Below the pieces are notes generated by a model. The model ran no database searches, was not told where the DNA came from, and saw only the letters and a program-made list of their open reading frames with translations. 26,128 nt of DNA from a virus: the IMG/VR virus record IMGVR_UViG_3300025769_000719, positions 1-26,128 of that record; one strand, given 5' to 3'. Position 1 is the first letter of the stretch. Each line of letters starts with the position of its first letter. The position numbers and the translations under genes are program-made. This document shows positions 559 through 24,435 of the stretch, piece after piece.

Positions 559-1016
559 TAGAAACCAATCCCGCATGGCACGCCCATTGGCTAAAGATCG
601 CCAGGGCGTATGCCGACCGCTCGAAAGACCCCAGCACCAAGGTTGGCTGCATCGCCGTCCGAGATCGAGCCCAGATCGCAGCCGGCTATAACGGCCTGCC
701 ACGCGGTGTCGTCGATCACCCAGACCGATACGCCGACCGGGACGTAAAATTGGCCATGACTGTCCACAGCGAGGGAAATTTGATTGCAGACGCCGCCAGA
801 CGCGGCGTAAGCCTCGATGGCGCAACCGCCTATATTACGCATCCGCCATGCAGCCATTGCGCAGGCCTACTGATCCAAGCTGGCGTCGCAAAAATACTGC
901 ACCCACCGGTCGAGCGAGAGTTCCTCGCCCGCTGGGACCAAAAAGTCCAGCGGCAGATGTACTTGGAGACAGGCGTGCTCTGCATGGAAATCAGCGAGGA
1001 GATCGCGTCGTCATGA
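528..1016 (+). CDS. Deoxycytidylate (dCMP) deaminase
   Basis: A 162-residue zinc-dependent deaminase that converts dCMP to dUMP, the substrate for thymidylate synthase, which is encoded four genes downstream. The zinc site and catalytic residues are visible: HSE at residues 80-82 (H80 ligand, E82 proton shuttle) and PPCSHC at 106-111 (C108 and C111 ligands). STKVGC (36-41) and GYNG (53-56) are typical of the phage dCMP deaminase fold. The ATG at 528 was chosen because AGGAG (515-519) lies 8 nt upstream; an in-frame ATG at 477 would bury the start far inside the preceding gene and lacks family similarity. The stop codon overlaps the next start in an ATGA. Confidence 0.92.
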   Translation: MAAKTSVGTMIETNPAWHAHWLKIARAYADRSKDPSTKVGCIAVRDRAQIAAGYNGLPRGVVDHPDRYADRDVKLAMTVHSEGNLIADAARRGVSLDGATAYITHPPCSHCAGLLIQAGVAKILHPPVEREFLARWDQKVQRQMYLETGVLCMEISEEIASS

Positions 1017-1018
1017 CA
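998..1018. repeat. Direct repeat, left copy (junction before pentapeptide gene)
   Basis: These 21 bp match 1804-1824 at 20 of 21 positions. The copy covers the Shine-Dalgarno GGAGA, the last codons and TGA stop of the dCMP deaminase gene, and the ATG of the pentapeptide gene. Confidence 0.85.
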
Positions 1019-1822
1019 CAAACTGAAATACAGGAGCCAACCCTAATGCACGAGAACCCGGAAGGCGTAAATCTGAAGGGCGCGAGCTTTGCAGGCGCGG
1101 ACCTGATAGACGCGGATCTGAAAGGCGCGGATCTGAGGGGCGCGGACCTAGCTGGCGCGAACATGAGAGGCGCGAACCTAGCAGGCGCAAACCTGACGGG
1201 CGCGTGCCTGACGGGCGCGGACCTGAGAGGCGCGGGCTTGGCAGACGCAAACCTGACAAACGCGGACTTGACGAAAGCGGAGCTGGGGGGCGCGAACCTG
1301 TGGGGCGCAAACCTGGGGTGGGCGGACCTGACGGACGCGGACCTGACGGTCGCGAACCTAGGGGCCGCAAACCTGTGGGGCGCAAACCTGACAGTCGCGT
1401 ACCTGTCGGGCGCGAACCTGGCGGGGGCGGATCTGACCGACGCGGACTTGACGAACGCGGACCTGACGAACGCGGACCTGATGAACGCGGACCTGATGAA
1501 CGCGGACCTGTTGGGCGCGGAGATGAAAGGCGCGGACCTAAGAGGCGCGGACATGACGAACGCGGACCTGCCTTTGCGGTTCATCACATTACCCCGCGTC
1601 GGTCATGCCGCCCGAACCTGCTGGGCCTGGGTGATGGATGATGGCGTCAAGATCACCCTCGGCTGTCGGCGTTTCGCGTCATGGGACGAAGCGCGTGCGC
1701 ATTACACCGCGCCAGATTACGAAGGCGAATGCGCGGATCGTATCGACGCGGCGCTGGCACGACTGGACTACGGCCAAGCTATGGAAACCGTTGTTCGAGC
1801 GATGGAGATCACGTCGTCATGA
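1013..1822 (+). CDS. Pentapeptide-repeat protein with a C-terminal domain
   Basis: A 269-residue protein. Residues 19-188 form 34 uninterrupted pentapeptides of the A(D/N)LXX type, which fold as a right-handed quadrilateral beta-helix of about 8.5 coils. The rest (about 190-269) is a separate small domain containing CWAWVMDDG and a helical LDYGQAMETVVRAMEI end, which I have seen attached to phage pentapeptide proteins but cannot name. Some family members (Qnr, MfpA) mimic DNA and protect or inhibit gyrase; nothing here proves that role. The start at 1013 overlaps the previous stop (ATGA). An in-frame ATG at 1046 has a better-placed AGGAG (1032-1036) and would remove 11 residues, so both starts are possible. 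The gene is bounded by a 21-bp direct repeat, suggesting a cassette. Confidence 0.9.
   Translation: MTQTEIQEPTLMHENPEGVNLKGASFAGADLIDADLKGADLRGADLAGANMRGANLAGANLTGACLTGADLRGAGLADANLTNADLTKAELGGANLWGANLGWADLTDADLTVANLGAANLWGANLTVAYLSGANLAGADLTDADLTNADLTNADLMNADLMNADLLGAEMKGADLRGADMTNADLPLRFITLPRVGHAARTCWAWVMDDGVKITLGCRRFASWDEARAHYTAPDYEGECADRIDAALARLDYGQAMETVVRAMEITSS
1067..1576 (+). repeat. 15-bp periodic repeat coding for 34 pentapeptides
   Basis: The sequence has a strict 15-bp period for about 510 bp, with units close to gcggacctgacgaac. It keeps other frames open on both strands, which explains long spurious ORFs here. The last third (about 1437-1510) holds the most similar units, so copy number there may vary between relatives. 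Confidence 0.92.
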
Positions 1823-2004: not shown

Positions 2005-2651
2005 AACTGGCCGGCTACAGCCGCCGCATCGGCGCAGAGCCTGATGAAACGCTGGGCGATCAAGTCGCGTTTTATGCGCGCGTGTCCAATCCTGCTAGCG
2101 CTGAGAACGCAAAAGGCAACGACAGGTTGATTAGCTATCTGATCCGGCACAAGCACTGGAGCCCGTTTGAGATGGTGTCAGCGACCGTGAAGATCACAAG
2201 CACGCGGGATATCCTTCGGCAAATCTTGCGACATTCGTCGTTTTCGTTTCAGGAATTTAGCCAGCGGTACAGCGCAACCGAAACCACCGGAGCCGTGCGA
2301 GAAACGCGGCTACAGGACCACACCAACCGCCAAAACAGCTTGGAAACTGACGACAAAGAACTCAATGACTGGTGGGTTAAGAAGCAGCGGGCCGTCATGG
2401 GCAGCGCGTTCGAGATTTATGATCAGGCGCTGAAGCGTGGCATCGCCAAGGAGCAGGCCCGCGCCATCCTGCCGGAGGGGTTGACTCGCAGCACCATATT
2501 TATGAGCGGGTCGATCCGGTCGTGGATCCACTACTGCCAGCTACGCACCGGCCCGGAGACGCAGAAGGAGCACCGCGAGATCGCTGCTGCGTGCGCAGCC
2601 CAGATCGCCCGCGTATTTCCCCAAATCGTCGGAGTGTTGCAGCATGACTGA
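1989..2651 (+). CDS. thyX: Flavin-dependent thymidylate synthase ThyX
   Basis: A 220-residue ThyX, which makes dTMP from dUMP using FAD, NADPH and methylene-tetrahydrofolate. The signature region is at residues 78-94 (RQILRHSSFSFQEFSQRY), with S91 and R93 in the expected active-site positions. The usual RHR of the motif reads RHS here (residues 81-83), a change of a normally conserved arginine. The second conserved block is ARAILPEGLTRS followed by RSWIHYCQLR. The ATG at 1989 was chosen because GAGGAG (1974-1979) lies 9 nt upstream; a GTG at 1980 is in frame but poorly placed. With the dCMP deaminase it forms a thymidylate supply route. Its stop overlaps the methyltransferase start by 8 nt. 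Confidence 0.95.
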   Translation: MHAEVKLAGYSRRIGAEPDETLGDQVAFYARVSNPASAENAKGNDRLISYLIRHKHWSPFEMVSATVKITSTRDILRQILRHSSFSFQEFSQRYSATETTGAVRETRLQDHTNRQNSLETDDKELNDWWVKKQRAVMGSAFEIYDQALKRGIAKEQARAILPEGLTRSTIFMSGSIRSWIHYCQLRTGPETQKEHREIAAACAAQIARVFPQIVGVLQHD

Positions 2652-2652
2652 C
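2639..2652. repeat. Direct repeat, left copy (thyX/methyltransferase junction)
   Basis: The 14 bp gcagcatgactgac is identical to 3402-3415. It carries the last codons of thyX (-QHD, stop) and the first of the methyltransferase (MTD-) in an 8-nt overlap. Confidence 0.8.
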
Positions 2653-3414
2653 GCGCTATACAACGAAATTGACCCCTATCCAGCGGCCTGGCTGCGCAAC
2701 CTGATCGCTGCCGATCACATCCCGCCGGGGCATGTCGATGAGCGCAGCATCGCCGATCTAACCGCGAACGATGTGAGTGATCGCGCCCAAGTCCATTTCT
2801 TTGCCGGCATCGGAGGATGGAACCATGCCCTGGAATTGGCCGGATGGCCGGCAGCTAGACCTGTTTGGACTGGGTCATGTCCATGCCAACCCTTTAGCCA
2901 AGCGGGAAAACAAAAAGGAGCAAGTGATGAGCGACACCTCTGGCCAGAAATGCGCAGGCTTATCGCTGAGTGCCAACCTTCAGTCGTCTTTGGAGAGCAG
3001 GTTGCAAGCAAACTTGGCCGAGACTGGCTCGCCGGAGTACGCGCTGACCTGGAAGCATTGGGATATGCAGTCGGGTCCGCCGACTTGTGCGCTGCGGGCA
3101 TCGGTGCGCCGCACATCCGACAGCGGCTCTATTGGGGTGCAATCAGGCTGGCCGACGCCGACCACCCGCGACCACAAGGATGGCGCGAGCGTCGGGACGG
3201 TGCCGGACAATGGTCTTCTGGGCCGGGTGGTCTGGCAAGCTGGCACGAATGCCTCGACGGAAAAGCCCGCCGCATACCGGCTGAACCCGAACTTTTCCCG
3301 CTGGCTGATGGGGTTTCCGGCAGAGTGGGCCAACTGCGCGCCTACGGCAACGCCATCGTCCCGCAAGTCGCGGCTGCGTTCATAACTGCATTTATGGAGG
3401 CGCAGCATGACTGA
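2644..3414 (+). CDS. C5-cytosine DNA methyltransferase (short phage type)
   Basis: A 256-residue enzyme that transfers methyl from SAM to carbon 5 of cytosine in DNA, probably to protect phage DNA from restriction. Motifs are in the canonical order: motif I FFAGIGG (52-58, SAM binding), motif IV GSCPCQPFSQAGK (77-89, catalytic C81), motif VI VVFGEQV (114-120, with E118), motif VIII QRLYW (160-164), motif X YGNAIVPQVA (234-243). The stretch between VIII and X that holds the target recognition domain is only about 70 residues, short for the family. No restriction endonuclease is adjacent, so it is an orphan. A second reading frame of the same DNA (2825-3385) also looks coding. The gene is bounded by identical 14-bp repeats at its two stop/start junctions. 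Confidence 0.92.
   Translation: MTDALYNEIDPYPAAWLRNLIAADHIPPGHVDERSIADLTANDVSDRAQVHFFAGIGGWNHALELAGWPAARPVWTGSCPCQPFSQAGKQKGASDERHLWPEMRRLIAECQPSVVFGEQVASKLGRDWLAGVRADLEALGYAVGSADLCAAGIGAPHIRQRLYWGAIRLADADHPRPQGWRERRDGAGQWSSGPGGLASWHECLDGKARRIPAEPELFPLADGVSGRVGQLRAYGNAIVPQVAAAFITAFMEAQHD
2812..2827 (+). promoter_or_regulatory. Internal Shine-Dalgarno and ATG for the overprinted ORF
   Basis: GGAGG at 2812-2816 lies 8 nt before an ATG at 2825 that opens the alternative frame. These bases encode the GGWN end of methyltransferase motif I, so the ribosome site is embedded in a catalytic motif. A second pair, AGGAG at 2916-2920 and ATG at 2927, is in the same alternative frame. Confidence 0.55.
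2825..3385 (+). CDS. Overprinted ORF inside the methyltransferase gene (186 aa)
   Basis: This ORF lies wholly inside the methyltransferase gene, in another frame of the same strand. The protein has features I recognise from a family of phage proteins of unknown function: a DLFGLGHVHANPLAKR start, LQSSLESRLQANL, YALTWK, CALRASVRRTSDSGS, SGWPTPTTRDHKDG, and an end RLNPNFSRWLMGFPAEW followed by CAPTATPSSRKSR. The methyltransferase motif QRLYW and the CALRASVRRTS block are the same nucleotides in two frames, as are YGNAIVP and CAPTATPSS. A strong Shine-Dalgarno precedes its ATG. It could be a real overlapping gene, or a by-product of conservation in the enzyme frame that databases have carried along. 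I know no function for it. Confidence 0.5.
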   Translation: MPWNWPDGRQLDLFGLGHVHANPLAKRENKKEQVMSDTSGQKCAGLSLSANLQSSLESRLQANLAETGSPEYALTWKHWDMQSGPPTCALRASVRRTSDSGSIGVQSGWPTPTTRDHKDGASVGTVPDNGLLGRVVWQAGTNASTEKPAAYRLNPNFSRWLMGFPAEWANCAPTATPSSRKSRLRS

Positions 3415-3415
3415 C
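3402..3415. repeat. Direct repeat, right copy (methyltransferase/XRE junction)
   Basis: Identical to 2639-2652 over 14 of 14 bases. It encodes the -QHD end of the methyltransferase and the MTD- start of the XRE protein, again with an 8-nt gene overlap. Confidence 0.8.
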
Positions 3416-3673
3416 CGACTGGAAGTATTAGAGGGCTTTCGCCAGCGCCTGCAACGGGCCATGGATGTTTGTGGCTATTCACAGCTCGACACCGCCCGCG
3501 TGACTACGCTATCGCGACAGGCGATCACGCAAATTCTGGCCCCGGAGACATGTGATCGGGCTCGCAAGATGGGCCCTAAGCTGTATCAACTCACGCTGCT
3601 GGCTGCTGGACTGCGGGTCGATCCAGGCTGGCTGGCGTTTGGCTCAGGCAATCCGCCGGAGGCCAAAGACTGA
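3407..3673 (+). CDS. Small XRE/Cro-like DNA-binding protein
   Basis: An 88-residue protein with a helix-turn-helix of the XRE type: YSQLDTARVTTLSRQAITQIL (about 24-44), followed by LYQLTLLAAGLRVDPGWLAFG (about 59-79), the typical end of a Cro/CI-like domain that carries a VDPGWLAFG tail. It probably regulates phage or host promoters; no operator can be assigned here. GGAGG (3396-3400) lies 6 nt before the ATG. It overlaps the methyltransferase stop by 8 nt and the next gene by one base (TGATG). A lysogeny repressor would normally be larger and carry a second domain, so Cro-like or accessory regulator is more likely. Confidence 0.75.
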   Translation: MTDRLEVLEGFRQRLQRAMDVCGYSQLDTARVTTLSRQAITQILAPETCDRARKMGPKLYQLTLLAAGLRVDPGWLAFGSGNPPEAKD

Positions 3674-3960
3674 TGCAGATCCGTCACGAAACGCTCATGC
3701 GAATATATCGCCAGACCCAGGATATTTGCGACAAGAAAGAGCTACTCATATCCGACGTTATGCGCCTGATCGAAAAGGCAATAGAGGACCACGAGCGCGG
3801 CTACTTACTGGCCCTAGAAATCCCGCACCAATGGACGAATCACTCGCTCCACACCATATTTTTGCCGCTGGATGAGGCTGAGTTCAGCGTTGAGCTAGAT
3901 GGATGGCCTGTTCGCGCGTCTCCTCTACGCGGCGCGTCCAGCCCCGACCGAACGTCTTGA
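3673..3960 (+). CDS. Unknown protein, last gene of the rightward operon (95 aa)
   Basis: I do not recognise this protein. The first 50 residues look helical and charged (TLMRIYRQTQDICDKKELLI, then IEKAIEDHERGYLLALE). It starts in a TGATG overlap with the preceding gene, which favours translation. The last 77 nt lie over the 3' end of the oppositely oriented endolysin gene, and the tail reading PVRASPLRGASSPDRTS looks non-native. The gene may therefore have been truncated where the two convergent operons were joined. Confidence 0.6.
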   Translation: MQIRHETLMRIYRQTQDICDKKELLISDVMRLIEKAIEDHERGYLLALEIPHQWTNHSLHTIFLPLDEAEFSVELDGWPVRASPLRGASSPDRTS

Positions 3961-4402
3961 ACAGATTGGTCAGGCTTTCATAGTACGCCTGCCGCATCGC
4001 GGAGTAGCTAAAGATCAGCGCTTCGGGGTCATTGCGTTCAACCGCCAGCAAAGTGTTTGGACCGATGATCCCGTCTACCGCTGAGCTAGACGCGGCTTGC
4101 AGCATCTTGATGGCGCGGGATACGCCAGCGTTGACGGCAAAATCGAACACGCACCAATCAACCCCAGCCGGGAGATCATCGCCGCGCACCTTTTCCCAAT
4201 ACATCTGTTGATAAATTGGCCGCACGTCGTCCTGTGTGAGCGAGCGCATCTCGCCTTCCGTCACGTCTCGCCAGATGAAGCGCTCATATGTGGCTTTGGT
4301 GACGCCCCAGTTAGTCATGCCGCCGGGGTCGTTGGGATGATTCACAAAGCCACCCTCATGCTCCATGAGCCACTCAAAGCAACGGCGAAAGTTGCCGATC
4401 AT
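3884..4402 (-). CDS. Endolysin, GH108-type muramidase with peptidoglycan-binding domain
   Basis: A 172-residue cell-wall hydrolase for host lysis. The N-terminal glycoside hydrolase 108 signature is clear: EHEGGFVNHPNDPGGMTNWG (residues 14-33), with E16 as the likely catalytic acid. The C-terminal half (about 80-150, DWCVFDFAVNAGVSRAIKML, then VDGIIGPNTLLAV) matches the peptidoglycan-binding domain usually paired with GH108. There is no signal peptide, so export would depend on the holin. The start at 4402 forms an ATGA overlap with the holin stop; a longer in-frame ORF reaching 4480 would read through the holin gene and lacks homology. Confidence 0.92.
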   Translation of the reverse strand: MIGNFRRCFEWLMEHEGGFVNHPNDPGGMTNWGVTKATYERFIWRDVTEGEMRSLTQDDVRPIYQQMYWEKVRGDDLPAGVDWCVFDFAVNAGVSRAIKMLQAASSSAVDGIIGPNTLLAVERNDPEALIFSYSAMRQAYYESLTNLFKTFGRGWTRRVEETREQAIHLAQR

Positions 4403-4815
4403 TTTTTGAGCTTTCCGGCTATTTTCTCGCCTGATCGGCCAACCACATAACCGCCAACGCCGATCATCAGCAGGTTCCAAAGCTCGTCCGGCAGCGGGAT
4501 GCTAAGAGCCACTTGCTGCCCAAGCGCGTAGTTGATTATCACCGTCGCAATTGGTGCTAACAGATAATTCCAGCCGACGATAGCCGTGATCGTTAGCATC
4601 AGGATCGGACGCCACGTCGCTGTGATCGTATGCTCAGATTTAGCCTCGGCCATAACGACCTGCGCCGCTGCCTGCTCGATGGCGTGGCTGTTGGTCACGA
4701 GCGCCATGTTCAGTTCGCGCTCGATCTCGGCCCGCTTATTCTGATCCTCCGGCAAAATTCGGCCTAATACGTCACCGATAAGTGGAGCTAGGATTGGGAG
4801 TAGTGCACCGATCAT
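4399..4815 (-). CDS. Holin, three-TM gene-transfer-agent type
   Basis: A 138-residue membrane protein with an N-terminal hydrophobic segment (about 4-21), a charged middle (QNKRAEIERELNMALV), a long hydrophobic region around 68-98 starting TWRPILMLTITAIVGWNYLL, and a last segment at 111-130. This layout, and the ATWRP motif, match the three-TM holin family first noted for GTA release. It would permeabilise the inner membrane so the endolysin can reach the wall. It overlaps both neighbours by ATGA, placing it between a TM/coiled-coil protein and the endolysin in a lysis cassette. Confidence 0.85.
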   Translation of the reverse strand: MIGALLPILAPLIGDVLGRILPEDQNKRAEIERELNMALVTNSHAIEQAAAQVVMAEAKSEHTITATWRPILMLTITAIVGWNYLLAPIATVIINYALGQQVALSIPLPDELWNLLMIGVGGYVVGRSGEKIAGKLKK

Positions 4816-9386: not shown

Positions 9387-12300
9387 TTAGGTGCCTCTCT
9401 CACGGCCATAGCCGACTGCTACATAGTCAAACGTGCGGTCCAGTGGATTGTTGCTACTGTCGAAAAACGAAACCGTAAAGCCGGTTCGGCTTTTGCTGGT
9501 AACGGTAAAATAATCTCCCGTTGCCATGTCTTGCGGGGTCACCGTCACAGACTTTAGCGCATAAAAGGCTGGGCTGAAAGTGACAGCATACGCCGCCGCC
9601 GTTCCGATTGTTATGTCATCCCCGGTCTGATAGATGTTCGGAGCCTCGACATCAACGGAAAGCGCCGTAATAGTAGGCGTGACGTTCTCCTCCAGGCTAC
9701 TCAGCTTGACCCGGAATTTCAAATGGCGAGCCGTGTACTCGCCGGTTGCTGATAACGCCTTCCAGTCGCCGTAAACAGGCGTGCCGTTGTCGTCCATGCT
9801 AAAAGCGACCTGAAACTCGACATTGACTTGATCTGGATCAACGTTGCCACCAAGAGTCGCTACAGAAGCAAGTGTCGTCCAGTCCGACATGAAGCCAAGA
9901 TTGGCATCAACGCCAGCCGTTACGCTCGGTGACACTCGTGTTGTCGTGACAATGCCAAGATCAACCTCATTCTGGAACTCATAATAGCCCAAACTGGGGT
10001 AAGTGCCGTCGGGGTTCGCGGCGATCTTTAGCGTAGAGCCGTCGACCGTCGTTGTCGTCTTGGTGCCGGCAAAGCCGGGGTCTTCAGTTTCAGTCTGGAG
10101 TGTGTTGTATATTTCAGGATCTTCAACCGTGCTGTTGGCATAAACCGCAGTCGATGATCGAGCCCCATTAACATCTATTGGCTTGATCGCATAGGTTCCG
10201 TTGCGTGTTGGCACGGCGAAAGAGCGCACCAATCGGGGCAGCAACGGACCCAGTGGAGTCATTTGTGACCAGTTGGTTACGTCTGGATCTGGATGATAAC
10301 GCAACTCGAAGTTTACCAGGTCAACCGGCGGGCTGGAATAGACCCATTCGGCATAGGTGAATGGGCCGATATTTTTGACCAGCAAACTATCAATCGCAGT
10401 CGGAGGATTGATGGTGCCGGTGACGATATGGTTTGTTTCAGTTCGCCATTGCGAAGTCGCGCCAGCAGCATCAATAGCCTGCACGCCAATATCGTATCCC
10501 TGACCGACAATAACGTCGTCAATCAGCCAGGACGTTGTGTCGGTCAAAAGCGGCGAGTATTGAAAATCAACATCCGTATTATATTCACGCCAGCGCACAC
10601 GATAAGCCGTGGTCGTTGTCGAGCGATAGCCCGAAGTCGCCGGGTCAACAGCGCCAGGACGGAACTGCACCAAGATGGTCGGGACGAATTCACCGTTTGC
10701 GGTCTGCCGCAAGACGGTTTCGTCCGAAATTATCTCGTCAATAATTGGGGTTGTCGGGCCTTGATAGGCGCGCGTGCTGCCGGCGCTAAGAACCGACGTG
10801 TAAGAAGGAATGCTTGTAGCCGCATTAAACACTTCGGGAGCATAGGGCATCGCCGTTATCGTTGCGTTCATGTCATCGGTAGGCTCGATAGCGTGAACAA
10901 TCAGATCCAGAGTTTCACTATCCAGAACCCCGAACATGAAAAGATCGCCAACCTCTGGTGCAGTTGTGTCGATGTCAGCGGGATTGAGGCCGATAGTGGT
11001 GGTCGTCCCCGGCACATACAGGACGTTGCGCAGAACATCTGTGCCATCAGCAAGCCGGAAACGCACTACATGATCTAGCGCGCCCGCCATCGTGACCTCT
11101 TGGTCAAGCGTAAGCTCTTGATCTGAGCCGGTAACGGTCACGCTTTTTACACGGCCAAACGCAGTGCCGATTTTCGGGATATCGTGACTGAGCCGAATGC
11201 GATCTCCCCGGACGCAGATCAGATGTTCCAGATCAGCCTTAAAGGTGAAGATCTCGGGGCGTAGCCGCACGATAGCCAGATATTCGCGCGCCAGCTTGTA
11301 GGCATGATCGGCATTCTGAACACCTGTCAGTTCCAGGCTTTCAAACAACGTAGCATTCGCGCTGGTGTAGCCATCATCGTAAACGATCCGCTCGTCCACT
11401 TGATATTCGGCATCCTCGTTGACGAAGCGAACCCGAAGTGCGTGTGGCTGATCGGGGAAAAGCCTAGACCCCGTAAAGCCCCATGAATTGCGCGGGGTAA
11501 AATGCTGCGTGACCGTCGATTTCACATTGTCGATAACGACGCCCCACAGCCCGTCCACGACGCTTATGCTAGCCCGACCCGCTTGCGCGATCTGCACCAG
11601 CAGATCTCGGACTGACGTTTCGTAGTCGATAACATGACCGAAGGTGTAGCTGTTGGCATCGCAATAACTCCACCATTCCGCCAGCCGCGTATCGTCAACA
11701 GCCGCCGCACTAAGCGCCTTGGCATTCTGCCCGCTTGTCAGCACAAAACGGAAGATGTCAGCAGGGTTGCGGCTGTAACCGACGGTATCCCAATCGTCCG
11801 CGGTAGGGTCGTACATTGGGATTTCGGCTTCCACGATCCCGTTGATTTGATCCAGCACGCCATTTAGCTGATCGGTCGCGCGAACGCGAATCACTGAATA
11901 ACAAAGCCCCGGAAGTGTGACGGGGTCGGCGTTCTGGAAAGATCGCAGCGCCGTCCAAGTCGGGACATAGCGGTCGTTGTTGCCGTCATAGGATGGATTG
12001 TCCGCCTTAATGCGCACATTGTAGGCATCTCGATCAACTGCCACGCGCCAGGATTTGCGATAGGGTTGCACTGTATTGGCCGACACGATTTCGGCGTTTA
12101 CGAGTCTGGTCCAAGGATCGCCGCTCGCGGCGCTGGTCGAGCGATATTCAATCGTTATCTGAATGGTGTTCGTGGCATAGTCGCCGCGATCTGTGACGTG
12201 CAGCAGCCCCTGACGCCACGTTAGGGTGACGCCGATCTCATCCGTGTCAATGGGCGTTGTGCGTTCCGTGAAAGATCCAGCCCCATTTTCATCAAGTGAA

Positions 12301-13022
12301 AGTTCGATGCTAAGATCTTCCTGGCGGGCAACATTCGGATACAGCACAGAGTCAACGTCGGTGCCGGGATCGCCAGGTATTGTTTCGATTTCATAATCAT
12401 CATAGCTGCTTAATAGAGTGTCGCCGACCTTGATATCGGTCACCCGCAGCGGGCCGTAACCCCACACGACCATCATACGCAGATACTGATCTTTCCCGAC
12501 GATCTCGGTGTAGGGATTTGCGCCATACGGCGGAACATAGCGCGATTTGCCGAGTGGGCGAGGGACCACTCCATAGCGTTTTGGGCGATTACGAGCGCCG
12601 CGGATATCATAAACCGTTGCCTCATTTGGTCGATCCGGCGCGCTAATCTCAGGTGGCGACGGCGCAAACAGCATATTCACAAGGAAGCTGAGTGCCGAAG
12701 TAAGAATTGTCGTCAAAACGGCGGCAAAAATCTTTGCGCCAAGCACCCCAAGCAACGGAACAAAGGGAGCCGCTGGTATATGCAACTGCGCCTTCAGATA
12801 AACTGTCGTGCCACCGTTCGGGAAAATACGGTTGAATTTATCCGACCGGATTTCATGCGGTCCGATCCAGGCGGTGTAGCTGGTGCTTGGATATTTCCGG
12901 GCTTCGATTTCCTCAATCGCTCCGGCAATGCTTTTGGATGACGGGCAATCGAAAATTACCCGCTCCTCGCGAAACGGATTTGGGACCGCGACAACGCGAT
13001 AGGTAGAGAGTTCCGGCGTCAC
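9387..13022 (-). CDS. Tail tip/central fibre protein, host-specificity J-like (1211 aa)
   Basis: This is the largest gene and forms the tail tip that contacts the host. The N-terminal 80 residues look like a small beta-grasp domain, followed by a strongly hydrophobic stretch (about 87-119) and then the J core (about 130-640, including TVYDIRGARNRPKRYGVVPR, WGYGPLRVTDIKVGDTLL). In lambda the small hydrophobic-containing protein (gpI) is separate, so this may be an I-J type fusion. Later regions look like fibronectin-like beta domains (about 750-950), and the C-terminus ends in a lectin-like module (FSPAFYALKSVTVTP to FDYVAVGYG). The GTG start overlaps the NlpC/P60 stop (GTGA). Confidence 0.9.
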   Translation of the reverse strand: MTPELSTYRVVAVPNPFREERVIFDCPSSKSIAGAIEEIEARKYPSTSYTAWIGPHEIRSDKFNRIFPNGGTTVYLKAQLHIPAAPFVPLLGVLGAKIFAAVLTTILTSALSFLVNMLFAPSPPEISAPDRPNEATVYDIRGARNRPKRYGVVPRPLGKSRYVPPYGANPYTEIVGKDQYLRMMVVWGYGPLRVTDIKVGDTLLSSYDDYEIETIPGDPGTDVDSVLYPNVARQEDLSIELSLDENGAGSFTERTTPIDTDEIGVTLTWRQGLLHVTDRGDYATNTIQITIEYRSTSAASGDPWTRLVNAEIVSANTVQPYRKSWRVAVDRDAYNVRIKADNPSYDGNNDRYVPTWTALRSFQNADPVTLPGLCYSVIRVRATDQLNGVLDQINGIVEAEIPMYDPTADDWDTVGYSRNPADIFRFVLTSGQNAKALSAAAVDDTRLAEWWSYCDANSYTFGHVIDYETSVRDLLVQIAQAGRASISVVDGLWGVVIDNVKSTVTQHFTPRNSWGFTGSRLFPDQPHALRVRFVNEDAEYQVDERIVYDDGYTSANATLFESLELTGVQNADHAYKLAREYLAIVRLRPEIFTFKADLEHLICVRGDRIRLSHDIPKIGTAFGRVKSVTVTGSDQELTLDQEVTMAGALDHVVRFRLADGTDVLRNVLYVPGTTTTIGLNPADIDTTAPEVGDLFMFGVLDSETLDLIVHAIEPTDDMNATITAMPYAPEVFNAATSIPSYTSVLSAGSTRAYQGPTTPIIDEIISDETVLRQTANGEFVPTILVQFRPGAVDPATSGYRSTTTTAYRVRWREYNTDVDFQYSPLLTDTTSWLIDDVIVGQGYDIGVQAIDAAGATSQWRTETNHIVTGTINPPTAIDSLLVKNIGPFTYAEWVYSSPPVDLVNFELRYHPDPDVTNWSQMTPLGPLLPRLVRSFAVPTRNGTYAIKPIDVNGARSSTAVYANSTVEDPEIYNTLQTETEDPGFAGTKTTTTVDGSTLKIAANPDGTYPSLGYYEFQNEVDLGIVTTTRVSPSVTAGVDANLGFMSDWTTLASVATLGGNVDPDQVNVEFQVAFSMDDNGTPVYGDWKALSATGEYTARHLKFRVKLSSLEENVTPTITALSVDVEAPNIYQTGDDITIGTAAAYAVTFSPAFYALKSVTVTPQDMATGDYFTVTSKSRTGFTVSFFDSSNNPLDRTFDYVAVGYGRERGT

Positions 13023-22923: not shown

Positions 22924-24435
22924 CTAGACAGCCATCCTATAGCCGGGATCATCCCAAGGAGAACTATATTGCACGATTTCCTCGCCAATGCAACCTAAAG
23001 CCATCGTCAGTGCCACCATGCCATCAATCTTAGCATACGACTTTGCCTTGTTCAACTTCCGATTGCCGGCAGGATCTCGCTGCACCACTGCCCCAGCAGC
23101 GCACATGTTTAAGATAGGATTATCACCATGGCAGAGCTTGCGCTCCGCCACCAAACGCTCCACCGTATCAACGGCGGGTGCCATATCTTTGAAGCCCTGC
23201 CCGAATGGCTTCATGGGAATATCCGCGCCGATGATGTCGAGTTCGCGTTTGAAGTCGTTAATCCGCCAGCGGTCATAGGCCAGCATGCGCAGATCATACC
23301 GCTCCGCCGCTTCTGCAACGGCTTGCGCCACCACGGCAGGGACAATTACCGGCCCAGGAATGGTGGTCAGGAAGCCTTGATCAGCCCAAATATCATAGGG
23401 CACGCGCTCCGCTCGCGACTTCTCCCGGAGCCCATCGGCGGGTAAGAAGAATTGCGGCACGATGTGGAACGTGTCGCCTTTCGGAAACGCCAGGACGAAC
23501 GCCGTCAAGTCGCGGCTTGCTGACAGGTCGAGCCCCGCAAAGCAGACATCACCGTCATCAATTGCCGGTGGCTCATTGTTCGCTTGCCATTCGCCCTTGC
23601 TCAAAAATGGGCTTTCCGCTTCAATCCGCTGGTTCAGGTAGAGCCAACGGAAGCTGTTCTCTTTCGACGGCAGCCGCGCGGCTTGCTTGGCAAAGTCCTG
23701 CATGTCCTGGAGCGAGCGAAATTTGCCAAGCGCCGGATTTGCGGCGCGCCACGCCTTGCGGTCTGACAGTTCGCAATCCTGCGGCGCGGTGTAGAGATGG
23801 CAAACGATCCGCCTGTCGTTTGCCGTTTGCGCGTCATCCAGCCAGACGGAAAACAGATCGCCATCGGTCGCCGCCTGCGTACTGATTGCAATCAACAGCG
23901 GGTCGGCGTGCGCGCCCTGGGCCGTTTCGATTGCCTCCACAAAAGCATCCGCTGGCCCGCGAACCTGCCCCACTTCATCCAAGATCGCCAGCACGGGAGA
24001 GAGCCCGTGCGCCGTGCCCGCCTCGGCGCTGATGGCTTTGTATTCGACATTCCGCGCCAGGCCTATCAGCGATTTTTGAGAAGGCACGATCTTGATTAGC
24101 TGGCTCAATATCGGCGAAAGCCGAACCATCTTTTCTGCTAGCTTGAACACCAGCGCCGCTTGGTCACGGCTTCTCGCCCCGCTGATAATCTGGCTGTTGA
24201 TTCGCGCCTCTGGCCCGGCAATATGGGCAAGCAAGATCGCGGCGATTAGAGCGCTTTTCCCATTTTTGCGCGCAACGCTGAGATAGGCGCGGCTTGTACC
24301 CGCCGGGTTATCGTAAATATCTTTGATGAACCGTTTTTGGAATGGCATCAGCTTGAACGGCTTGCCTACGTCCGCCCCTTCCGGGATCGGGCATAGCTGT
24401 TCAATGAATGCGATGATGCGTGCGCTACGGGTCAC
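22924..24435 (-). CDS. Terminase large subunit (503 aa)
   Basis: The packaging motor and nuclease. The ATPase domain has Walker A VARKNGKS (54-61), Walker B VLAILDE (148-154) and the coupling motif ISTQ (184-187). The nuclease domain has GLDLSASRD (301-309, D303), AYDRW (386-390, D388) and KIDGMVAL (469-476, D471), the three metal-binding acidic positions expected in an RNase H-like fold. The gene overlaps the Mom-like gene by ATGA and touches the portal gene. Confidence 0.95.
   Translation of the reverse strand: MTRSARIIAFIEQLCPIPEGADVGKPFKLMPFQKRFIKDIYDNPAGTSRAYLSVARKNGKSALIAAILLAHIAGPEARINSQIISGARSRDQAALVFKLAEKMVRLSPILSQLIKIVPSQKSLIGLARNVEYKAISAEAGTAHGLSPVLAILDEVGQVRGPADAFVEAIETAQGAHADPLLIAISTQAATDGDLFSVWLDDAQTANDRRIVCHLYTAPQDCELSDRKAWRAANPALGKFRSLQDMQDFAKQAARLPSKENSFRWLYLNQRIEAESPFLSKGEWQANNEPPAIDDGDVCFAGLDLSASRDLTAFVLAFPKGDTFHIVPQFFLPADGLREKSRAERVPYDIWADQGFLTTIPGPVIVPAVVAQAVAEAAERYDLRMLAYDRWRINDFKRELDIIGADIPMKPFGQGFKDMAPAVDTVERLVAERKLCHGDNPILNMCAAGAVVQRDPAGNRKLNKAKSYAKIDGMVALTMALGCIGEEIVQYSSPWDDPGYRMAV

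Follow-up and report, generated by a model that had tools for sequence, protein, structure and literature searches.

One gene of the virus record IMGVR_UViG_3300025769_000719 appears to be read twice. The window, that is, the whole stretch of 26,128 bases that was analysed, carries on its plus strand frame A (2644-3414), which encodes a C5-cytosine methyltransferase chain of 256 amino acids, and frame B (2825-3385), shifted by +1 with respect to A, which encodes a chain of 186 amino acids; B begins inside A and ends 29 bases ahead of the A stop. The comparison of relatives makes it almost certain that this DNA is dual coding, with both frames conserved and B under selection as a protein. The two products probably form a single C5-cytosine methyltransferase, in which A would be the alpha chain and B the beta chain, both encoded by one stretch of DNA but in different frames.

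Conservation of the second frame

How general is this arrangement? IMG/VR was scanned with both chains, and the best 80 of 246 matches with B were taken together with the best 80 of at least 595 matches with A, 79 of which were new loci. With five phage records and the window itself this makes 165 loci, three contigs being present twice, once per scan. The loci of the A scan were picked without regard to B, yet they are those nearest to the window's A. B occurs in the same +1 register of A in all 165 loci, and in 163 of them as a single open reading frame (ORF). A scan of GTDB genomes with the B profile added the best 80 of 202 matches, among them loci from Proteobacteria, Verrucomicrobia and Nitrospira. 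By hidden Markov model (HMM), A and B overlap in all 244 loci collected from these scans and records, and a B without an A was found in none of the 244; the idea of a standalone B family was rejected on that count. As for annotated phages, 297 records matched and eleven of them were examined. Long +1 ORFs are also present (presence only, without statistics) in the actinophages Hades and MoxS-R1, coliphage KMB43, Klebsiella phage Seifer, Rhodobacter phage RcMaeve and cyanophage Cy-LDV1.

Is the open B frame simply what the A protein, its codon usage and the GC content would produce by themselves? B would then be a translation artefact, and this explanation has its attractions, given that stops may be scarce in the +1 frame where a gene is GC-rich and that part of B mirrors A, as the enzyme of Mycobacterium phage McProf indicates. 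The codon tests, however, leave it scarcely credible. Six of the 165 loci were set aside (L004, L034, L067 and L139, with split or double frames, and L023 and L155, with a short A), which left 159 loci and 141 distinct A proteins. The null keeps the A protein fixed and redraws synonymous codons, mainly from the gene's own usage; it takes genes as independent, and kinship enters only through the removal of duplicate proteins and the weighting of the entropy tables. Over A codons 61-240 (A61-240), 0.12 B-frame stops per gene are seen against 2.85 expected, and the B frame is open in 129 of the 141 genes, where the redraws predict about 10. Over A81-205 there is not a single stop in the 141 genes, against about 300 expected, and an artefact of A codon usage was rejected by this test. 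The 17 B-frame stops that do occur, in 12 genes, fall in A61-80 (5) and A206-240 (12), and the depletion sets in near A codon 41. In the control frames, the stops per gene are 9.7 seen and 9.1 expected for A+2, and 3.1 and 3.3, 4.9 and 4.5, and 5.8 and 5.0 for the three reverse frames.

The fourfold-degenerate sites of A speak against an artefact as well, for they are suppressed precisely along the conserved part of B and vary freely in the remainder of these genes. They differ in 63-67% of comparisons over A5-104, in 29-45% over A105-208 and in 9% over A212-225, the lowest value, which falls on the LNPxxSRWLMG block of B; the share then rises to 40% in A226-240 and to 61% in A241-255, about where B ends. 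The segment with amino-acid constraint on the B frame (A105-240) corresponds to positions 2956-3363 of the window, at a resolution set by bins of 12-26 codons. Within A212-225, 25% of the B residues change versus 41% of the A residues, and B-frame differences amount to 0.243, against 0.750 by redraw. In A206-225, moreover, the third codon position of A is as conserved as the second and less variable than the first, a turnover of entropy that is expected if frame B codes. The first ~44 B residues after ATG 2825 show neither a fourfold-site signal nor amino-acid constraint in the relatives, and on these comparisons they are either unconstrained or outside B in many members.

The first-pass annotation had proposed a same-strand overlapping pair and had named synonymous variation by frame, together with stops in relatives, as the way to check it. 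That check has now been run and favours dual coding, the second frame being constrained in both respects. Its other suggestion, that many database proteins of the B family may be artefacts if B is not translated, is not supported; these proteins look real.

The overlap extends to two distant groups of methyltransferases, with ENV or ENS as motif VI, which were reached through a weak match in a Verrucomicrobiota genome. Their IMG/VR relatives (76 + 9 loci) were chosen by A frames alone; an A frame was obtained for 85 of 86 loci, L369 being the exception. In all 85, a +1 ORF overlaps A by 142-506 codons, while the overlap in the +2 frame is 0-159. The larger group provided, from its 76 loci, 65 distinct A proteins with a length of 220 residues or more; these genes have no B-frame stops over A61-460, where about 313 are expected, and from A461 on their stops are near or above expectation. 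Fourfold sites at their motif IX-like block differ in 2.6%. By contrast, 27 PF00145 genes from a class-wide genome draw (not GC-matched) have 8-29 stops in the +1 frame and a longest open run of 39-202 codons, which again speaks against an artefact. The draw held 30 loci, three of which had no ORF by pattern, and one of the 27 (L398) resembles a fragment of the overlapping kind.

Division of the motifs between the two chains

Frame A has the catalytic motifs of a C5-methyltransferase, together with the known fold. It matches PF00145 (E 1.3e-18) and PHROG 363 (E 2.4e-76), and its top PDB sequence match is M.HhaI. Its AF2 model (pLDDT 79.8, pTM 0.73) matches, by Foldseek against the PDB, 8yf3, a DNA cytosine C5-carboxymethyltransferase (E 2.9e-8), and M.HhaI (E 3.3e-8, TM-score 0.43). 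Sequence and alignment place motif I, FAGIGG, at 2800-2817; motif IV, PCQPFS, with the catalytic Cys, at 2881-2898, where P80, C81, Q82, P83 and S85 are invariant in two alignments (A2 and A4); motif VI, as EQV instead of the usual ENV, at 2995-3003; motif VIII, QRLYW, at 3121-3135; and motif X, GNAIVP, comparable to that of canonical enzymes, at 3346-3363. The motif names, such as motif I for FAGIGG, are those of the C5-methyltransferase literature.

Enzymes made as one chain carry their target-recognition region and motif IX in the interval from motif VIII to motif X. Judged by this order, the A chain alone looks incomplete, as no motif IX precedes motif X in the same chain; the low-confidence stretches of the A model, residues 174-196 and 220-235, fall between motifs VIII and X. 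The first-pass annotation, which credited A with all catalytic motifs, was thus right about I, IV, VI (as EQV), VIII and X and wrong about IX: it overlooked that motif IX is missing from A and that a putative stand-in lies in B. Of the overprints that it listed, CAPTATPSS does lie over YGNAIVP; CALRASVRRTS (3086-3118) is found over GIGAPHIR, just ahead of QRLYW and not over it.

Two parts of B are candidates for the missing region. The first is GWPTPTTRDHKDG (3146-3184), a repeat unit resembling a target-recognition domain (TRD), to which entropy by codon position draws attention and whose PTP units stand in frame in the one-chain McProf enzyme. The second is LNPNFSRWLMGFPAEW (3281-3328), the block in place of motif IX, over which the minimum of fourfold variation falls. 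Searched as a pattern (LNPxxSRWLMGxPxEW or a near form), this block is present in B in 217 of the 244 loci and in A in none, and motif X is present in A in 227. For comparison, a canonical motif IX set was built from PF00145 genes, 21 of 27 of which matched the motif IX pattern, and 17 of them plus Dcm were used. With hhalign, the B block (58 of 71 B members) falls in the right register of this set in a weak match (probability 37%, E 3.5e-4). Its position and this weak profile match together suggest that the block may be a motif IX.

Two protein families are matched by B, PHROG 1008 (E 3e-27) and PHROG 31772 (E 9e-14), and each is labelled 'DNA methyltransferase'; among 75 scanned B proteins all matched the former and 72 the latter. 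Modelled alone, B gives no confident fold (pTM 0.27), as is expected if it is part of an enzyme.

Motif X is not bound to one chain. In the viral loci L292, L324, L326, L327, L341, L342 and L346 and in the bacterial locus L277, the IX-like block and motif X are both in the B ORF, and A ends without motif X; its presence on either chain is expected if both chains form one enzyme. In a tree of A N-termini, the six swap loci that were included need at least five changes, and a likely route is the exchange of a C-terminal cassette by recombination. A side observation concerns the A C-terminus in L324, L326, L327, L342 and L346: these five have a Cys-rich tail in common, VFASDC..CECC...C.KC..HYADCPC.GPNS.DD, which may bind zinc.

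How would such an enzyme work? Alpha would supply the motifs for S-adenosylmethionine (SAM) binding and catalysis, I-VIII, and the C-terminal motif X, and beta the segment between VIII and X, with target-recognition-like GWPTP repeats and the LNPxxSRWLMGxPxEW block in the motif IX place. One message would give both chains, which would assemble, bind DNA and methylate it, and this methylation would presumably protect or mark the phage genome. We infer that B, besides contributing motif IX, is made from a start of its own, associates with A and provides the recognition of the target.

Perhaps, instead, B exists as a protein without being part of the enzyme, an accessory encoded in an alternative frame, be it a methyltransferase regulator, an antirestriction protein or something else. 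Many overlapping viral genes do encode accessory proteins, and the Pfam results would suit one: the window's B has no Pfam, NCBIfam or PDB sequence match, and the Pfam matches among the 75 B proteins are scattered and weak (best E 0.011). Yet the most constrained block of B sits in the place of the motif that A lacks, the one-chain McProf enzyme has the same units in frame, motif X can be on either chain, and B never occurs without A in the 244 loci, all of which make a mere accessory unlikely.

Start and expression of the second chain

In the window, the B frame is already open at GTG 2777, ahead of ATG 2825. A possible ribosome-binding site, GGAGG (2812-2816; duplex energy -9.5), stands eight bases before this ATG, so that the two same-strand frames and the site are as the first-pass annotation described them. 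An alternative start is ATG 2927, preceded by AAGGAG (2915-2929 for the two together; duplex energy -7.9), which is closer to the onset of the constrained segment; the latter begins ~30 bases after ATG 2927. Both ATG codons are candidate starts for the window's B. Among the relatives, strong Shine-Dalgarno pairing (duplex energy of at most -6) is found for 26% of the ATG or GTG codons of the +1 frame within A28-100 versus 4% of those of the +2 frame, about six times as often, and 86 of the 141 genes have such strongly paired starts in the former versus 17 in the latter. B is probably expressed from its own start inside A, at a place that would vary between relatives.

A further possibility is that ribosomes pass from A into B, producing a longer hybrid chain in which B has no start of its own. 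B is indeed displaced by +1 from A along its whole length, and the C-terminal motifs of L277 and the seven viral swap loci are in the B frame, as a shift would have it. The constraint on B, however, sets in near A codon 105, ahead of motifs VI and VIII; a shift at that point would lose both, and one placed after motif VIII would not account for the constraint further upstream. The strong Shine-Dalgarno pairing, too, is commoner at B-frame starts than in the control frame. That B arises by frameshifting only was rejected on where the constraint begins, and a hybrid chain is quite improbable.

Observations against a two-chain enzyme

A number of observations weigh against the explanation of A and B as two chains of one enzyme. 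To begin with, the start of B is not conserved: a start codon is present at the equivalent of 2825 in 27 of 139 relatives (16 ATG, 3 GTG, 8 TTG), and in the remaining relatives the best Shine-Dalgarno pairing belongs to a start at another place, often around A codons 32-42 or 91-95. The idea of the first-pass annotation that the SAM motif doubles as a ribosome site is therefore not supported as a general rule. In L108, L127, L076 and L079, a B-frame stop at A61-63 even imposes a later start. The redraw null is itself imperfect, as control segments outside B also fall slightly short in B-frame differences (0.652 seen versus 0.685 expected in A5-31), a gap far smaller than that inside B. Moreover, the closed +1 frame of McProf shows a stretch similar to B upstream of motif VIII; part of the B likeness between distant groups in this region is, on the sequence comparison, a shadow of A conservation, and whole-length homology of the distant B proteins was rejected for this reason.

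Other points concern the identity of the block. When the comparison set contains the IX-like block and motif X together, hhalign matches on motif X only; against Dcm alone the register is right but the probability is 2.4%; and searches of Pfam, NCBIfam and PDB with the C-terminal IX-X segments recognised no motif IX. An X-like string, by a loose pattern, is also contained in 4 of the 244 B ORFs. Neither the B model nor the B profile matches a solved structure (Foldseek of the model: none with E < 0.7). Finally, one chain is broken in L034 (a stop in A), L004/PMG1 (a shift near the A N-terminus), L067, L285 and Ochi17, which may reflect decay or sequencing errors.

As for these broken loci, B is intact in L004 (PMG1; 1303-2225) and L034 (2067-2619) although A is shifted or stopped. 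In Mycobacterium phage Ochi17 (L248, 1031-1790), two short 'DNA methyltransferase' genes are annotated; PCQ is absent from the longest methyltransferase frame found there, and the +1 frame of the latter has a B-like stretch at its end.

Comparison with known systems

An enzyme of this kind is already known from a restriction-modification system. The larger chain of M.EcoHK31I is given motifs I-VIII and X and a predicted TRD, and the smaller chain motif IX only (PMC3404938); the enzyme is described as naturally split (PMC3439449) and as part of a restriction-modification system (PMC6456624). In the window, the larger chain likewise has motifs I-VIII and X, and it is by this division of the motifs, with a putative motif IX on the smaller chain, that the pair is likened to the two-polypeptide enzyme, which recognises YGGCCR. 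Lee, Kam and Shaw are said to have reported, in 1995, that the smaller chain of M.EcoHK31I is encoded in an alternative frame within the gene of the larger one. If the type is defined in this way, the window's B likewise lies in an alternative frame within the A gene. There are also differences. The predicted TRD of M.EcoHK31I is said to be in its larger chain, whereas in the window the stretch from VIII to X is constrained in the B frame. In addition, M.EcoHK31I belongs to a restriction-modification system, and the window's frame A has thyX (1980-2651, Thy1 E 1.8e-40) as its upstream neighbour, no search having been aimed at restriction enzymes.

M.AquI (alpha/beta, CYCGRG) offers another division, with motifs IX and X on the smaller chain, which is shared by the seven viral swap loci and L277. 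It is unlike the window, where motif X stays on the larger chain A and the frames overlap over most of their length. The DNA methylase of Mycobacterium phage McProf, in turn, resembles the window in the order of its units (PTP units, LNPRFAEWMMGWPLDW, GNGVVPQ), but has all of them in one frame, and its +1 frame is closed by 15 stops. The spacing from LNP to GN in McProf is 31 residues, versus 29-34 in 17 canonical enzymes.

In databases, the two chains stand side by side without a connection. The window proteins fall in PHROG 363 (A) and in PHROG 1008 and 31772 (B), all labelled just 'DNA methyltransferase', and the listing contains no statement that 363 and 1008/31772 are two frames of one gene. 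Similarly, phage K1G has both frames annotated as separate overlapping genes, ORF30 and ORF31 ('Mte8-like protein' and 'C-specific methylase'), and its feature table states no relation between them. A putative Mte8-like gene is mentioned in passing in one article (PMC5582158). A search of 5.39 million open-licence papers found none on the overlap, most subscription papers being outside this search. What seems to be new is the breadth of the arrangement, its conservation under double selection in phages, a TRD-like region encoded by the overlapping frame, and a motif X that can move between chains.

Annotation and significance

Gene calls differ in how they treat the overlap. Among 13 annotated phage records that have it, both frames are annotated in three (K1G, fTaEco03 and PhiXhv-5), only A in six (Haboob, Hades, Seifer, RcMaeve, MoxS-R1 and KMB43), only B in three (PMG1, Tunturi_1 and Cy-LDV1) and neither in one (Riah). 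Recognition of the pair would correct the calls that omit one chain and would explain how two unrelated-looking 'DNA methyltransferase' families arise from the same DNA. It would also suggest why frame A, if expressed alone, might be inactive, and it would offer a natural split methyltransferase for work on targeted methylation.

Few long overlapping genes in prokaryotes are fully established, according to one paper (PMC9927249). The present pair, which lies on one strand and has both of its frames under selection, is seen in hundreds of loci, also among distant groups of enzymes, and has a simple functional reason. Could a large branch of phage and bacterial C5-methyltransferases be an obligate two-frame enzyme, with a catalytic chain that is inactive alone, target recognition in the overlapping frame, specificity evolving under double coding, and motif X free to change chains? 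The chances of this broader reading seem to us evenly balanced. If it is true, the branch would span sequences tied to Proteobacteria, Verrucomicrobiota, Cyanobacteria and Actinobacteria, and proteins now filed as single 'DNA methyltransferases' would be half-enzymes.

Further features of the loci and of the window

Some relatives have peculiarities of their own. L139 carries tandem A/B pairs on one contig, at 406-1383 and 2501-3484. In L276, at ~615-700, motif I is split, with LDLFSGI in the B frame and IGGFAIAA in the A frame. In L257 (EBPR siphovirus 2) and L258 (a faecal phage), A is interrupted by an insert with homing-endonuclease-like sequence, and the +1 B is open in both. The insert ends in ...VVHN directly before the catalytic Cys of PCQPFS, so that this Cys would be the first residue after a splice; the insert may be intein-like.

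As for the rest of the window, a pentapeptide-repeat protein (PF00805 E 8.6e-55) is encoded on the plus strand at 848-1822, and there are long repetitive open frames besides this gene on both strands, for example, 991-1587 (minus) and 1204-1641 (plus). The minus strand encodes a GH108 endolysin-like protein (3884-4480), a tail tip J-like protein (9387-13022) and a large terminase (22924-24435), all of them thus facing the other way from thyX and the methyltransferase.
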